Translations under genes and position numbers: made by a program
The notes under the pieces: generated by a model
Told to the model about the DNA's origin: nothing
Seen by the model: only the letters and a program-made list of their open reading frames with translations
The model's database searches: none
Assembly (NCBI GenBank): GCA_002716125.1
Contig: PAZH01000040.1
Span: 1 to 64,000 of the forward strand
Direction of reading: 5' to 3'
Length of the DNA stretch: 64,000 nucleotides
From: Rhodospirillaceae bacterium
GTDB lineage: Bacteria; Pseudomonadota; Alphaproteobacteria; UBA8366
In this document: piece by piece, positions 54,911-61,834 of the stretch
Layout of the letters: each line of letters opens with the position of its first letter
Numbering within the stretch: the first letter of the stretch is position 1

Positions 54911-55876
54911 TTATTCGACTTCGAAGTAGTGCACACTAAAGAGTGCTGCCGCATCGCTCCAAACTTGTTTTGGCGCAAAACCCGCATTGCGCGCCAAGTC
55001 TTGGAACTCTTCGATCTCGTATTTGTGTGAGTTCTCGGTATGGATCCTCTCGCCTGCGGCAAACTCGAACATGCGATTGCCAAGCTTCACCACTTGATCA
55101 CGCGAACTGATCAGGAACATCTCGATGCGACCATCTTCGACATTGTAGGGTGCATCGTGCGTAAAGGCCGAGAGATCGAAATCACCGCCGAGCTCGTTGT
55201 TGATACGCGTCAGTAGATTGAGATTGAAATCGGCGGTGACACCGGCACTGTCATTATAGGCATCATAAAGAACCGCTTCGTCTTTTTTCCGGTCGGCGCC
55301 AATCAACAGTCCGCCACCCTTACCGACATGCGCCGCGATCCGCTTTAAAAATGCGGCGGCGGCTTGCGTCTCGAAATTGCCGATGGTCGAACCCGGAAAG
55401 AATGCGACACGGCGCTCGCCCGGAATACCTTCTGGAATATCGAAATCCTGCGAAAAATCCGTACAGAGCGCATGGACCTGGAGCGCCGGATAGTCATGCG
55501 CCAAATTTTCCGCCGCCGCGCGAAGATGCTCGCGGGAGATATCAACCGCGATGTAGGACGCCGGTTCTTCAAGCGCGTCCAGCAAGACGCGGACTTTCTC
55601 GATCGAGCCGCAACCATATTCCAGGACCTGCACACCCGGCCCGATCACGGCTGCCATCTCCCCCGCTTTCTCGCGCATCAGAGCCGTTTCCGTGCGCGTT
55701 GGATAATACTCCGGCAATTCGCAAATCTGGTCGAAGAGTTTGGAGCCGTGCGCGTCGTAGAAGTACTTACACGGCAAGGATTTGGGAGAGGCGGATAGCC
55801 CTGCGATCACGTCACCGAGAAAATCGTCTTCGGCGGGCGAAAGGTCGCTGAAGGAAGCAAGTTTAGGTTCTGGCAT
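54911..55876 (-). CDS. egtD: L-histidine N-alpha-methyltransferase (EgtD)
   Basis: The 321-residue protein is the exact usual length of EgtD. Key motifs are VLEYGCGSIEKVRVLLDAL (SAM binding), YIAVDISREHLRAAAENLA, VAFFPGSTIGNFE and AYNDSAGVTADFNLNLLTRI, with the tail FSVHYFEVE. It adds three methyl groups to histidine to make hercynine, the acceptor for ergothioneine and selenoneine. ATG 55876 is chosen since the 11 upstream residues are not part of the family. It is 54 bases after the SenA-like gene stop and is the last gene of that minus-strand pair. Confidence 0.95.
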   Translation of the reverse strand: MPEPKLASFSDLSPAEDDFLGDVIAGLSASPKSLPCKYFYDAHGSKLFDQICELPEYYPTRTETALMREKAGEMAAVIGPGVQVLEYGCGSIEKVRVLLDALEEPASYIAVDISREHLRAAAENLAHDYPALQVHALCTDFSQDFDIPEGIPGERRVAFFPGSTIGNFETQAAAAFLKRIAAHVGKGGGLLIGADRKKDEAVLYDAYNDSAGVTADFNLNLLTRINNELGGDFDLSAFTHDAPYNVEDGRIEMFLISSRDQVVKLGNRMFEFAAGERIHTENSHKYEIEEFQDLARNAGFAPKQVWSDAAALFSVHYFEVE

Positions 55877-55930
55877 GACCGGGATGCAATTTGAGGTGCC
55901 CGGCACCATAGCGACCCCTGCAGCTCGACG

Positions 55931-57232
55931 TCAAATCGCGCAGGTACGGAAACCGCCTATCGTATCGCGACGGTCGGGTGTGAAGAAATTTCGATAGGTA
56001 TTGCTCACCATCCGGCTCCGGGTCGCCCAAGCGCCACCCCTTAGAACCTTTCGCGTGCCAAACCACGGTTTCGAATAATCCTCGTACGGATCGACGCTGA
56101 AACCGGGGAAAGGCAAAAAGTCGCTCGAGGTCCATTCCCACACATTGCCGATCATCTGACGACACCCGACGGCGCTGTCACCTGCCGGATAGGCCCCAAC
56201 ATCGACAACTCCCAGATGCCGTCCGTCGAGATTTGCCGGGCATCCATCTATGGAATCCCCCCAAGCATACCGGCGTTTCGGCATATCGCTTTTAAGTTGC
56301 CCGGTTGGGCGATAAGCCGCCGCCGCTTCCCATTCGGCTTCGCTCGGCAAACGACGACCGGCCCATCGGCACCAAGCTTCAGCCTCGAACCAGCTCACGT
56401 GACTAACCGGATGATTTGGCGGCAGCGGAATTTCCGTGTCGAAAGTACGCACCCACCAGTTGCCGTCATCGCCGCGTCGCCAATAGATGGGATGCACCGC
56501 CTTAACTTCTTCACGCCAGCGCCAGCCCGCGTCGCTCCAGTAACGCTTGTCGGAATAGCCGCCCGCTTCGACGAAGTCGCGGAACGCCGCGTTCGTCACC
56601 GGGGTTCTTGCAATCTGAAACGGCGCAATTTCGACCACATGCCCGAACTTCTCGTTATCGAAGATGAACGGTCCGCCCGCGCGCGAACCAAGCTCGATCT
56701 GACCGCCCGCTACATCGGCATCCCCCGGTAAGGCGCCAACATCGGGCGCAACTTGGTCCTTGGCTGCGCGAAACTCAGGCGCCGGATATGAGAGCGTTTG
56801 GCGCGTGTAGGTGAAGGCCTCGTCGTGCATATCCTCATGGAAGGTCGTCAGCTGGTAGAGATAGGATTCCTCTTCATTCGCTTCGCCGTCTTTCAGGCGG
56901 TCGATCATCGCGTCTTCGACCGCGCGCATATACTGAAACGTCCCGTGCAAATCCGGCAGGTCGAGATCCCATCGTGTATCGTGATGAACTTTCATCGAGT
57001 CGTAGAGTTTATCGGTCTGGGGCATAATCGGATCCGCTTTGTCGATACGCCGAAGAACGAAATGTTCGTGAAACCAGGCCAAATGCCCGATCTCCCAGAG
57101 CAATGGATTGACGATGTCGATCCGAGGCCCCATCAATTGATCATCGTCCAGACCGTGAACCAACTCAATCGTGCGCCCCCTGGCATCCTGGAGATTGGAA
57201 ACCAAAGTTTCTTTCGTCAGTCTTTCACTCAT
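55931..57232 (-). CDS. senA: Selenoneine synthase SenA-like / EgtB-family non-haem iron enzyme
   Basis: A 433-residue protein of the EgtB-family plan: an N-terminal DinB-like domain and a C-terminal FGE/sulfatase-modifying-factor domain. Iron ligands are visible: GHLAWFHEH (His 50) and FHEDMH (His 132 and His 136), the positions of EgtB's iron-binding His residues. The C-terminal domain has RLPSEAEWEAAAAYRP, the FGE core, and ends NFFTPDRRDTIGGFRTC. EgtB-like enzymes join sulfur donors to hercynine with O2; SenA joins a selenosugar. The neighbouring SenB and SelD genes make SenA likely, but a plain EgtB cannot be excluded from sequence alone. ATG 57232 is 24 bases from senB's start. Confidence 0.82.
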   Translation of the reverse strand: MSERLTKETLVSNLQDARGRTIELVHGLDDDQLMGPRIDIVNPLLWEIGHLAWFHEHFVLRRIDKADPIMPQTDKLYDSMKVHHDTRWDLDLPDLHGTFQYMRAVEDAMIDRLKDGEANEEESYLYQLTTFHEDMHDEAFTYTRQTLSYPAPEFRAAKDQVAPDVGALPGDADVAGGQIELGSRAGGPFIFDNEKFGHVVEIAPFQIARTPVTNAAFRDFVEAGGYSDKRYWSDAGWRWREEVKAVHPIYWRRGDDGNWWVRTFDTEIPLPPNHPVSHVSWFEAEAWCRWAGRRLPSEAEWEAAAAYRPTGQLKSDMPKRRYAWGDSIDGCPANLDGRHLGVVDVGAYPAGDSAVGCRQMIGNVWEWTSSDFLPFPGFSVDPYEDYSKPWFGTRKVLRGGAWATRSRMVSNTYRNFFTPDRRDTIGGFRTCAI

Positions 57233-57256
57233 CTCGCAGCAATCAATCGGTCGTTC

Positions 57257-58216
57257 ATGAAAATCACCATCGTCACCCCCGCCAAGAAAGGCGACCGGTC
57301 CGGAAACCGTGCGACGGCCAATCGATGGTCCGCTATTCTCAAGAAGCTCGGTCATCGGCCGCGCACACTCACGGAATACGACGGCGCGCCGAGCGATGCA
57401 ATGCTGGCAATTCACGCCTGGCGGAGCGCGTCCTCCATTCGCCGATTCCGGGAAGATCACCCGCATATTCCGTTGATTCTCTGTCTTGCCGGGACCGACA
57501 TCAATAGCTTCCAGACCACCCACCCCGAGGAGACGCATGGTTCCATGGCACTGGCCGATCACTTGGTCTGTCTCCACAATCGCGTCGCACGCGCGATTCC
57601 ACGTCGATTTCACAGGAAGCTCCACGTCATTCGACAATCGGCCCCGCCGATCCGGCGCAAGCACCCGCTAAAACGCAAGTTCGAGATTATGGTTGCCGGC
57701 CATCTTCGCGATGAAAAAGACCCGATGCGCGCGGCTAAAGCGGCTCGAAGATTGCCTGATACATCGCTGATTCAAGTCGTCCATATGGGTAAAGCGATCG
57801 ACAATGCATATCGCGACGTAGCCGTCGAAGAAATGAGCCAGAACGCGCGATACCATTGGGTTGGCGAGGTTCCCAGGTGGCAAGTCCGACAGAAAATGGC
57901 CCGCGCCCGCGCCATGGTCATTTCATCTTGCCAAGAGGGTGGCGCCAATGTGGTCTCCGAAGCGATCATGGCCGGCCTTCCTGTTATCGCCTCCAAAATA
58001 GACGGCAATGTCGGACTGCTCGGCGCAGACTATCAAGGCTACTACCCCACCGAAGACACGCTTGCGCTCGCCAAATTGCTGATGCGCCTGGAAACGGACA
58101 AAGGGTTCTTTAAGGCTCTTTCAGCTCAAGTTCGCGCCCTAAGACCCGAATTTACGGAAAAGCGTGAACTCGCCGCGTGGAAATCTCTCTTGGCTGGCCT
58201 TAACCAAGGAGCGTGA
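57257..58216 (+). CDS. senB: Selenosugar synthase SenB-like GT-B glycosyltransferase
   Basis: The 319-residue protein opens MKITIVTPAKKGDRSGNRAT, the conserved start of the SenB-type family, and continues LHAWRSASSIRRF-like AIHAWRSASSIRRFREDHPH and LILCLAGTDINSFQ. The C-terminal half has IMVAGHLRDEKDPMRAAKA, WVGEVPRWQ and SCQEGGANVVSEAIMAGLPV, the nucleotide-sugar site of GT-B enzymes. SenB links selenophosphate to a UDP-sugar to give a selenosugar, which SenA then joins to hercynine. It is divergent from senA, with starts 24 bases apart, and its end overlaps the convergent selD gene by 17 bases. Confidence 0.85.
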   Translation: MKITIVTPAKKGDRSGNRATANRWSAILKKLGHRPRTLTEYDGAPSDAMLAIHAWRSASSIRRFREDHPHIPLILCLAGTDINSFQTTHPEETHGSMALADHLVCLHNRVARAIPRRFHRKLHVIRQSAPPIRRKHPLKRKFEIMVAGHLRDEKDPMRAAKAARRLPDTSLIQVVHMGKAIDNAYRDVAVEEMSQNARYHWVGEVPRWQVRQKMARARAMVISSCQEGGANVVSEAIMAGLPVIASKIDGNVGLLGADYQGYYPTEDTLALAKLLMRLETDKGFFKALSAQVRALRPEFTEKRELAAWKSLLAGLNQGA

Positions 58217-60467
58217 TCGGCTCCAAATGGTTGCTCTGCGGCAGAATTCGGCCGACGACCGTCGCTGTTGAATAGCCGGCTTCACGCAGCGCATCGACAC
58301 AACCTTCGGCCTCAGCTTCCGGCACAGTCGCCAAAAGACCGCCCGCGGTCTGCGGGTCGAAGATTAGCGGCAGCAGCTCCGACTCTCGTCCGCCGTTGGA
58401 ATCCGCCCGGATGGCCCGCCGCAACCGGACGTTCTGTGGCTGCAAGGATGAGAAAATACCATTCCGCACGCAGTCCAATGCGCCATCCAAGAGCGGCAAC
58501 GCATTGAGATCCAGTTCGACATCGACTTCCGAGGGGCGGGCCATTTCAACCAGGTGTCCAAGCAGACCGAAACCCGTCACGTCCGTGCAAGCGGTAGCAC
58601 CACGTGCAAACAGAACTTCGGATCCTATGCGGTTCGACTGCACCATCGATGCCAACGCATCATCGATCCATCGGCCCTTGGCGTCGCCTCGCATATCGGC
58701 CGCGAACAAGGTGCCGGTGCCGAGCGGCTTCGTGAGGATCAAGCGGTCGCCCGCCTGCATGCCGCCTTTGCGAAGAATTTTATCCCGGTCGGCAAGACCG
58801 TTGATCGAGAAGCCAAGCGCCAGCTCCGAGGCTTCGCTCGTATGGCCGCCGACAAGCGACGCGCCGGCATCCGCCAATACATCCATCGCGCCCGACATCA
58901 TATGGAACAGTGCTTCTTCGACCTTCGCTTCCGGTCCGAACGGCACGGATGCAACGGCAAGCGCGGATTGCGGCTCCGCCCCCATCGCAAATACGTCACC
59001 GAGCGCATGATTGGCCGCCACCTGGCCGAAAATATATGGGTCGTCGACAAACGCGCGGAAGAAATCGACCGTGTGTACCATAACCTTGCCGGGCGGCACT
59101 TCGACGACCGCCGCGTCATCCGGTTCATTCAGTCCAATCAGAACGTCCGGTCGTTTGACCGGCTCCAACATCTGCAAGGCACGGCCGAGAACATCCGTCC
59201 CAACTTTGGCGCCGCAACCGCCGCAGCGCATTGCAATGGCGGAAATCTCCTTCATCGCCTCGGCATCTGCGAGTCCAGCGGCGATTTCGACCTCGTTGTC
59301 CTCTTCCATTTTCGGCAGGTCTTGGTATTTCCGCATCCAACGAAGGTCGATCCAATTCTTGAGCTGCCACACCCATTCGCCTTCGACGGCCCAACCGTTT
59401 CGCGAGCCAACCGCGTATTTGTCGCCCGTGGAGACCAAACTTAGGAAATCGCTTTGCGGACGGAACGACTTGAGCGGACGTCCTGTCAATGCGCGTCGCA
59501 AGTTCTCCGCCAGCGGCGGGCCCTGCCGCACCGCAAATACGCCGGCTTTAGGCCGCGGATGACTGGCGACGCCGGCGATATCGCCAGCTGCAAAGATACC
59601 GGGATGCGATTCCGTCTCGAGCGTATCGTGCACGGCGATGAAACCGCGATCGTCGAGCCCCAATTTGGTCTCCTGGCGCAGCCAAGGCGCAGCACCAGCG
59701 GGTGTCACCCAGAGGATCTCATCGAGCGCGATACGCGCGCCGTTTTCACAGGTCACCGCGCCGTCTTCGACCCCGACGACTTTATGGTTGGTGTGAACCT
59801 GAACACCACGCTCTTTCAGGACACGATTGAACTTTCGGCGGACGGACGGGTTGTGGGAGACGAGGACATCGTTCGCGTCCGTGATCAGATGAAATTTGAT
59901 GTGATCCGATGCGCGGCCGGCCTCTTTGAAATCCCGGCGTAACCGGTGCTCGATGGCGAGTAGAACTTCAACTCCACCGGCACCCGCACCCACGCCGCCA
60001 ATGTGAATCTCGTCCGAACGTTCCCGCACACGATCAAACAGCCCCTGCCAGCGATCCACAAAATTGTTAATGGGTTTAACCGGCGTTACATGCGCTTTCG
60101 CGCCCGGCGTTTCCATATGCGGCGTTGAGCCGATATTGACCGACAATACGTCGAATGCAACGGGCGGTCGGTTTCGGCAAACCACCTTCTTGTTGACGTG
60201 GTCGATGCCGACAGCTTCGTCGTGATAAATGCGCGCACCCGCAAACTGCGCGAGCGGCCGAAGGTCTATGTGCGTTTCATCGAATTCGTAGTGCCCGGCG
60301 ATATATCCGGGCAGCATGCCGGAGTACGGTGTGTCCACATCCCGCGTTATCAACGTGATTCGAACACCCGGCATAGGCTTCATACCGAACATCTTCAGCA
60401 CGGCGACATGTGAATGGCCGCCGCCAATAAGGACGAGATCTTTTACGATTGGCGTATCGGATTTCAT
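58200..60467 (-). CDS. selD: FAD/NAD oxidoreductase-SelD fusion (selenide, water dikinase; SenC role)
   Basis: A 755-residue fusion. Residues 1-385 are a FAD-binding NADH-dehydrogenase-like domain (LVLIGGGHSHVAVLKMFGM, GVGAGAGGVEVLLAIEHRL, FAAGDIAGV). Residues 405-755 are SelD: MRCGGCGAKVGTDVLGRALQ carries the catalytic Cys (Cys, not Sec) and Lys, then LNEPDDAAVVEVPPGKVMV, TVDFFRAFVDDPYIFGQVAA, NHALGDVFAMGA, VGGHTSEASELALGFSINGL, TDVTGFGLLGHL and IFDPQTAGGLLATVPE. SelD makes selenophosphate from selenide and ATP; it supplies both selenocysteine and selenoneine. SenC is a SelD-type protein, so this gene fits that role. The fused oxidoreductase may deliver reduced selenium. Confidence 0.93.
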   Translation of the reverse strand: MKSDTPIVKDLVLIGGGHSHVAVLKMFGMKPMPGVRITLITRDVDTPYSGMLPGYIAGHYEFDETHIDLRPLAQFAGARIYHDEAVGIDHVNKKVVCRNRPPVAFDVLSVNIGSTPHMETPGAKAHVTPVKPINNFVDRWQGLFDRVRERSDEIHIGGVGAGAGGVEVLLAIEHRLRRDFKEAGRASDHIKFHLITDANDVLVSHNPSVRRKFNRVLKERGVQVHTNHKVVGVEDGAVTCENGARIALDEILWVTPAGAAPWLRQETKLGLDDRGFIAVHDTLETESHPGIFAAGDIAGVASHPRPKAGVFAVRQGPPLAENLRRALTGRPLKSFRPQSDFLSLVSTGDKYAVGSRNGWAVEGEWVWQLKNWIDLRWMRKYQDLPKMEEDNEVEIAAGLADAEAMKEISAIAMRCGGCGAKVGTDVLGRALQMLEPVKRPDVLIGLNEPDDAAVVEVPPGKVMVHTVDFFRAFVDDPYIFGQVAANHALGDVFAMGAEPQSALAVASVPFGPEAKVEEALFHMMSGAMDVLADAGASLVGGHTSEASELALGFSINGLADRDKILRKGGMQAGDRLILTKPLGTGTLFAADMRGDAKGRWIDDALASMVQSNRIGSEVLFARGATACTDVTGFGLLGHLVEMARPSEVDVELDLNALPLLDGALDCVRNGIFSSLQPQNVRLRRAIRADSNGGRESELLPLIFDPQTAGGLLATVPEAEAEGCVDALREAGYSTATVVGRILPQSNHLEPITLLG

Positions 60468-60634
60468 GATCCCATACCTAGCAAAGTCCTTCTCTCTCGA
60501 CCATCAAAAGAAAATTACGTGTGTGTCACACCAACCAGATTGGTTTTTCCGTTCACAAATTTAAGGCGGATCGTGGCAAAAACATCTATTTGCCTTAGAG
60601 TTCTTCGTTGATGGAACCGAAAGGGTCACAAGTC

Positions 60635-61834
60635 ATGCCTATCGATTTGGGTCGAATTGCAGAAGAATTCCCGGGTGCAAAGGATCAAATCTATCTGAAC
60701 TGCGCCGCACGCGGCCTGACACCGAAATGCGCACGCTCCGCGGTGGACGCGCTCTTGGACGCTGGCACCTTCGGCTCAGGCGACAAGGACGAAATGTTCG
60801 AGACGGTCGAGCGCGTACGCGGTGGGTTCGCGCAGATGATCAATGCACAAACGGATGAAATCGCGATTACCAAGAACGTGTCGGAAGGTTTGAATGCCAT
60901 TGTCGCTGCCTTGGATTTAAAAGCCGGCGACAATGTCGTCTTATGCCCTGATTTAGAGCATCCGAATAACGTCTATCCTTGGCTGCATCTGCGGGAGCGG
61001 CTGGGTGTGGAAATACGCACGGTCCCAGGCAACAACGGACATATGCCGATAGAAGACATGATTGCGGCAATGGATGAGAAAACCCGTTGCGTCACGGTTG
61101 CGTCGGTCAGCTTCTCACCGGGATTTCGGACAGATATCGCACCGCTTGGCGCTGCTTGCCGAGACCGTGGCGCATTTTTCCTGGTCGATGGAGTGCAATC
61201 CGTCGGCATTATCGAGACCGATATCGAAGCACTAAAGATAGACGGCCTCGCAGTCTCGACCCAAAAGGGCCTTCTTGGGCTTTACGGTATGGGCCTGCTC
61301 TATTGTCGACGCGAATGGGCGGACCGGATCACCCCTGTGTATTTGGCGCGCTTCGGTGTCGACCTCGGGAGCGGCGTTCATGAAGCGGCACTTGAATCCG
61401 ACAACTACCGTTTAATGCCGGGCGCCAGGCGGTTCGATCTCGGCAATCACAATTACGTCGGCGCCTATGCCGCCGCGGAATCAATTGATCTACTCAACGA
61501 TATCGGCACAAAGAACATCGAGGCCCATGTTGGCGCACTCACCCGGCAATTGGCCGACGGACTGCTCGCGCTCGATTTACCTGTGGTCGGCGGCCCGGCG
61601 GGCGCTCATCTAACAAGTTTATTGTGTGTCGGGCGTCTTGGCGGTGGCGGTCATGATTCGACGGACGACGAAGAGATGTCTTCGCTTTCGCAGCATCTAA
61701 GTGCCAACAAGGTACAACATTCCATTCGCAAAGGCCTCATTCGCCTGTCCCTACATCTGTACAATACGGAAGAAGACGTCGCCGACGTAATCGCACTTGC
61801 CCGGACATGGCGGGACACCAAAGCGGCCGCGTAA
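60635..61834 (+). CDS. Class V aminotransferase-fold PLP enzyme
   Basis: A 399-residue PLP enzyme of the cysteine desulfurase / isopenicillin N epimerase fold. The start MPIDLGRIAEEFPGAKDQIY is followed by YLNCAARGLTPK, ITKNVSEGLNAIVAAL, DVEHPNN-like LCPDLEHPNNVYPWLHL, FFLVDGVQSVG and the PLP lysine in VSTQKGLLGLYGMG. Known functions in this fold include EgtE (C-S lyase for ergothioneine), desulfurases and kynureninase-like enzymes. It is divergent from selD with 167 bases between starts, so it may belong to the selenium island. ATG 60635 follows AAAGGG; an ATG at 60611 is an alternative. Confidence 0.85.
   Translation: MPIDLGRIAEEFPGAKDQIYLNCAARGLTPKCARSAVDALLDAGTFGSGDKDEMFETVERVRGGFAQMINAQTDEIAITKNVSEGLNAIVAALDLKAGDNVVLCPDLEHPNNVYPWLHLRERLGVEIRTVPGNNGHMPIEDMIAAMDEKTRCVTVASVSFSPGFRTDIAPLGAACRDRGAFFLVDGVQSVGIIETDIEALKIDGLAVSTQKGLLGLYGMGLLYCRREWADRITPVYLARFGVDLGSGVHEAALESDNYRLMPGARRFDLGNHNYVGAYAAAESIDLLNDIGTKNIEAHVGALTRQLADGLLALDLPVVGGPAGAHLTSLLCVGRLGGGGHDSTDDEEMSSLSQHLSANKVQHSIRKGLIRLSLHLYNTEEDVADVIALARTWRDTKAAA

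Follow-up and report, generated by a model that had tools for sequence, protein, structure and literature searches.

The pathway to selenoneine was published in 2022, is widespread, and has curated models that already name its genes; its steps are outlined in PMC9814287 (for Kayrouz et al. 2022) and PMC10903977. In Variovorax paradoxus, three selenium enzymes are encoded by senABC (Kayrouz et al. 2022, via PMC9814287). Ovoselenol clusters, represented by OvsA (PDB 8u41, 8u42 and 8ux5) and by loci of Vreelandella utahensis (L082) and Halomonas (L137), combine an EgtB-superfamily enzyme with SenB and a nearby Ndh-SelD, a selenophosphate synthetase fused to an NADH-dehydrogenase-like FAD/NAD(P)H oxidoreductase domain. 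A report of 2008 on marine bacteria (PMC2398784) described Ndh-SelD together with the CxxC motif that it carries, and a survey of the fusion followed in 2015 (PMC4561486). Ergothioneine synthesis has an EgtD of the same family as the one described here, and its EgtB shares the iron-enzyme superfamily and the iron ligands.

We describe a new example of the selenoneine pathway in the window, the 64,000-nucleotide stretch of Rhodospirillaceae DNA that was analysed. Four intact open reading frames at 54911-60467, which encode EgtD, SenA, SenB and an Ndh-SelD fusion, all pass curated cut-offs, and in agreement with the original prediction we conclude, with a probability of roughly 0.93, that they form a complete selenoneine biosynthesis cluster. 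The four genes were assigned by family membership and residue conservation, and each catalytic step would follow that of its characterised relatives. EgtD would methylate histidine to hercynine, Ndh-SelD would convert selenide and ATP to selenophosphate, and SenB would combine selenophosphate with a UDP-sugar (probably UDP-GlcNAc or UDP-Glc) to give a selenosugar. SenA, with Fe(II) and O2, would then attach the selenium of this sugar to the imidazole of hercynine, and the resulting selenoxide would collapse to selenoneine. The additions made here are modest: a residue test that separates SenA from OvsA, an all-in-one cluster that includes EgtD, and a single fused SelD that probably serves several selenium uses. 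The full route, including hercynine supply, is thereby placed in an uncultured, apparently marine alphaproteobacterial family, whose members may contribute to the selenoneine of marine animals.

Organisation of the cluster

The gene egtD (54911..55909, minus strand) encodes a 332-residue L-histidine N-alpha-methyltransferase for hercynine supply (TIGR03438, PF10017) and is followed by senA (55931..57232, minus strand), which encodes a 433-residue EgtB-superfamily non-heme iron enzyme assigned as selenoneine synthase (NF041186). A gap of 24 bp (57233..57256) separates the senA start codon, which ends at 57232, from that of the divergent senB (57257..58216, plus strand), whose 319-residue product is assigned as the Se-glycosyltransferase (selenosugar synthase) by TIGR04348 and by its residues. 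The role of senC falls to selD (58200..60467, minus strand; TIGR03169 and TIGR00476), which encodes the 755-residue fusion, converges on senB and overlaps it by 17 bp. We set the senA start at 57232, as the NF041186 profile begins at residue 6 of this shorter form, and regard the longer reading frame (to 57664) as an upstream extension; the TIGR04348 profile begins at residue 3 of SenB. Pfam domains agree with the NCBIfam assignments. The window shares its three selenium enzymes with Variovorax senABC; it differs in having egtD inside the cluster, and the SelD of the window is an Ndh fusion.

In each of the four genes, the differences from the copy in another member of the genus (L051) lie mainly at the third position of codons, which indicates selection at the protein level. 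A recent foreign island was considered and rejected, as the GC content of the cluster (57.8%) is that of the window (57.9%) and L051 keeps the gene order. Divergent from selD on the plus strand lies a gene for a class-V PLP enzyme that resembles cysteine desulfurases (60608-61834). Its candidacy as a conserved selenium donor is unsupported, since it is kept beside selD within the same genus only.

The glycosyltransferase SenB

The glycosyltransferase had been predicted to be of the SenB type, and this is borne out both by its score (390.4 bits against TIGR04348, cut-off 300) and by its catalytic residues. We compared 16 positions with the crystallised Variovorax enzyme, taking the functional positions from PMC10891094, among them the catalytic Lys158 and the donor residues N20, T23 and E231; the window SenB keeps residues whose importance in the Variovorax enzyme was shown by mutagenesis. 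Eleven of the 16 are identical (window N17, T20, H53, R56, T80, D81, Q127, R151, K154, E227 and E235), and they include Variovorax N20, T23, H58, R61, T85, K158, E231 and E239. The set concerned with donor binding and Se-P cleavage is thus kept entire, as N17, T20, K154 and E227 (Variovorax: N20, T23, K158 and E231). Five positions are not kept: in Variovorax numbering T83, V157 and H235, together with L209 and T214, which contact uracil. Most of the five are changed alike in five relatives, and 83, 157 and 235 differ in the near relatives too, so the donor preferred by this clade may be a different one. SenB had no match in a search against defence-system profiles.

Among the matches listed, the nearest named records are Rhodospirillaceae bacterium UBA3470 (L077; its SenB is 66% identical) and Alphaproteobacteria bacterium Arabian12_MAG_54 (L078). 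The titles of such records are the basis on which we call the host family apparently marine.

The iron enzyme SenA

The window protein scores 517.6 bits against the SenA model NF041186 (curated cut-off 420) and 345.6 bits against the EgtB model TIGR03440 (cut-off 360), the latter 14 bits short. The profile check thus favours SenA, but the SenA score alone is insufficient to tell SenA from OvsA, since the OvsA of L082 also passes NF041186 (427 against 420). The closest solved structure is in fact OvsA (353 bits), with M. thermoresistibile EgtB at 258 bits and Variovorax SenA at about 252 bits. Because OvsA is the best PDB match, we compared the active sites of SenA, OvsA and EgtB directly, using 74 SenA, 4 OvsA and 4 EgtB sequences.

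The original prediction described an EgtB-family iron enzyme with intact histidine ligands, and H50, H132 and H136 do align with the EgtB ligands; these histidines are kept in every SenA, OvsA and EgtB row that covers them. In place of the corresponding EgtB residues, the window protein has the half-site H84-R87-W88 (H-x-x-R-W), which is common to SenA and OvsA and absent from EgtB. Its histidine occupies the position of EgtB R87 and is present in 72 of the 74 SenAs, including that of the window, and in all four OvsAs; the arginine and tryptophan at +3 and +4 are invariant in SenA and OvsA, and the tryptophan is absent from EgtB. In M. thermoresistibile EgtB, R87 contacts the carboxylate of the donor. 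On the hercynine side, the window protein has Y386, N415 and F416. These positions correspond to EgtB Y380, N414 and W415 (literature numbering; the alignment numbering runs one higher) and are occupied by Tyr, Asn and Phe/Tyr in almost every SenA. OvsA has Met, Gln and Ala in four of four rows. The natural Vreelandella protein of L082 has M/QA and PDB 8ux5 has Y/NF, so 8ux5 is presumably an engineered OvsA variant.

These residues bear on the possibility that the cluster is of the ovoselenol type, in which an OvsA would join selenium to histidine, not hercynine, and yield ovoselenol or a relative. Such a reading would account for OvsA being the closest solved structure, and in both L082 and L137 OvsA and SenB likewise adjoin near an Ndh-SelD; neither the SenA profile nor the tree (AU p 0.077 for a grouping with OvsA) excludes it. 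Against it stand the Tyr, Asn and Phe of the hercynine side, the position of OvsA as a clade of its own, and the neighbouring methyltransferase, which in the tested OvsA locus (L137) belongs to the ovothiol-type family TIGR04345 where the window has EgtD; the scanned neighbours of the window cluster gave no TIGR04345 match. The gene layout also differs: L082 and L137 have senB and ovsA on one strand, and in the window senA diverges from senB. The SenA/OvsA half-site, the Tyr/Asn/Phe set and the EgtD context together identify the window protein as SenA and lead us to reject OvsA, on active-site residues and context and not on tree or profile; an ovoselenol product is in our judgement very improbable. 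The presence of SenB beside EgtB and SelD had been offered as what sets selenoneine synthesis apart from plain ergothioneine synthesis. The reading itself was right, but since ovoselenol clusters carry OvsA together with SenB, the pairing is no proof of selenoneine: both kinds of cluster have SenB with a member of the EgtB family, and a few active-site residues are needed to distinguish them.

The phylogeny (35 rows, mixture model, with placements compared by the AU test) splits EgtB from SenA plus OvsA with support of 99/97 and recovers OvsA as a separate clade (100/100), which may have originated inside SenA. Placing the window clade inside EgtB with the EgtB of its own type is rejected (p 0.005), and placing it with the M. 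thermoresistibile type is rejected marginally (p 0.038). Grouping with OvsA is not rejected by the tree alone, nor is a single SenA clade (p 0.112). With the window clade as the deepest SenA branch, beside EgtB, p is 0.51, and the basal order within SenA is not fixed by the tree. Variovorax SenA is distant from the window protein and forms a long branch. The iron enzyme does not fall within true EgtB and the glycosyltransferase does not fall outside SenB, the two placements that the original prediction had named as counting against it.

It might still be argued that the cluster serves ordinary ergothioneine synthesis through a divergent EgtB with a thiol donor, with SenB and SelD as neighbours by chance or in another role. 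The shared superfamily, the adjacent EgtD and an EgtB score so little under the cut-off are what one would then expect. However, the SenA-model score exceeds the EgtB-model score by 172 bits, the assembly has a separate true EgtB (528 bits), the R87 position is the histidine of SenAs, and the linkage of senA, senB and selD recurs across Proteobacteria. On score, residues and AU tests we reject a plain EgtB and consider this explanation barely credible.

EgtD and the question of ergothioneine

EgtD scores 416.8 bits against TIGR03438 (cut-off 290.9), matches PF10017, and is the only EgtD found in the genome assembly. The separate true EgtB lies on another contig of the same genome (C9; L054:5996-7348) and scores 527.7 bits against TIGR03440. 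A single EgtD alongside two such enzymes raises the possibility of two products, with EgtD supplying hercynine both to SenA for selenoneine and to the distant EgtB for ergothioneine, which would add to the selenoneine reading. The last 25 or so residues of the contig C9 EgtB are in another reading frame, by a real frameshift or an assembly error, so the gene may be broken or misassembled; the contig itself may be foreign, given an assembly completeness of 87.6% and a contamination of 5.5%; and several family genomes that have SenA lack a second EgtB-like match. We hold the two-product proposal as tentative and somewhat doubtful. The scanned neighbours of the cluster gave no EgtC or EgtE family match above cut-off.

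Returning to selenoneine, SenA, SenB and EgtD occur together in nine of the 11 family genomes, and none of the three was found in the remaining two (64% and 84% complete). In the window genus and one further genus, egtD is next to senA; in the others it has another place in the genome. Three genomes that are 94, 100 and 100% complete (G001, G002 and G009) have EgtD and SenA and no second EgtB-like match at E<=1e-60, which makes selenoneine the most likely purpose of EgtD in these three. One contig (C55 of G010; L068) ends in a second, partial SenA-like gene and also carries selU.

The Ndh-SelD fusion

The fusion, which the original prediction did not mention, is evident from both halves of the protein. 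Residues 10-381 match the N-terminal-to-SelD family TIGR03169 (492.2 bits, cut-off 310) and residues 413-719 match SelD itself (TIGR00476: 309.3 bits, cut-off 125). The score against TIGR04369, an oxidoreductase/SelD-related fusion that is not SelD, is 467.9 bits, below its cut-off of 700. The active-site motif CGGCGAK aligns with GCGCK of 3u0o, with the catalytic Cys/Lys kept. The protein is like the marine fusion of 2008 (PMC2398784) in joining a COG1252-type flavoprotein to a Cys-SelD with a CxxC motif (CGGC in the window) and differs in sitting within a selenoneine cluster. Since that report Ndh-SelD has been known to be abundant at sea, with no clear role, and selenoneine clusters are one setting for it.

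The fused protein is the sole SelD found in six genomes, that of the window included (G000, G001, G002, G006, G009 and G010), all of which have SelA; G009 has SelA, SelU, SenA and SenB with the single fused SelD. It therefore probably serves selenoprotein synthesis as well, by supplying SelA for selenocysteine. Overall, SelA is present in 10 of the 11 family genomes and SelU is above cut-off in four; a tRNA search of 17 kb around selA did not find tRNA-Sec. In two genomes (G003 and G004; L036 and L037) the fused Cys-SelD is accompanied by another SelD, which is not fused, contains a single in-frame TGA and is probably a selenoprotein.

Among 387 class-mates, SenB occurs in 16, the Ndh N-terminal domain in 75 and both in 14 (Fisher p 3e-9, a value that overstates independence because the genomes share ancestry). 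The fusion is thus strongly associated with SenB (14 of 16) but not dedicated to it (14 of 75), and we reject a dedicated role in selenoneine synthesis on this count and because it is the sole SelD in several SelA-bearing genomes. Perhaps the Ndh domain supplies SelD with selenium in reduced form at its CxxC motif. A fuller proposal, which we think rather unlikely, is that Ndh reduces selenium and hands the selenide to SelD by way of CxxC. The fusion would then be a self-contained entry point for selenium, with its selenophosphate shared out among selenoneine, selenocysteine and, in sister genera, selenouridine.

Distribution of the locus

A SenB scan of species genomes found at least 565 relatives, of which we read the best 80. 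Most of the 80 have the gene layout of the window cluster. In 67 loci senA and senB are divergent, tightly so in most, and their alignment starts usually lie 20-50 bp from each other. Convergent senB and selD often share about 17 bp. The Ndh domain stands beside SelD in 47 of the 51 loci that show SelD, and divergent senA and senB converging on Ndh-SelD recur across Proteobacteria.

A PhnD-type transporter gene is present in 26 of the loci read, and the copy in L049 belongs to TIGR04553, a putative selenate binding protein family; the window genome has no TIGR04553 match above cut-off. In six loci (L046, L047, L049, L050, L052 and L053), PhnD/PhnE-like ABC transporter genes lie directly upstream of Ndh-SelD. 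Eight further loci (L100, L112, L135 and L149, from Marinobacter, with L127, L086, L094 and L097) have senB by Ndh-SelD and by a transporter of the selenate type, and their flanks, read for up to 6 kb, contain neither senA nor ovsA; their senA may lie elsewhere, or another partner may use the selenosugar. The divergent senA/senB pair also occurs on plasmid records of Hydrogenophaga and Methylorubrum.
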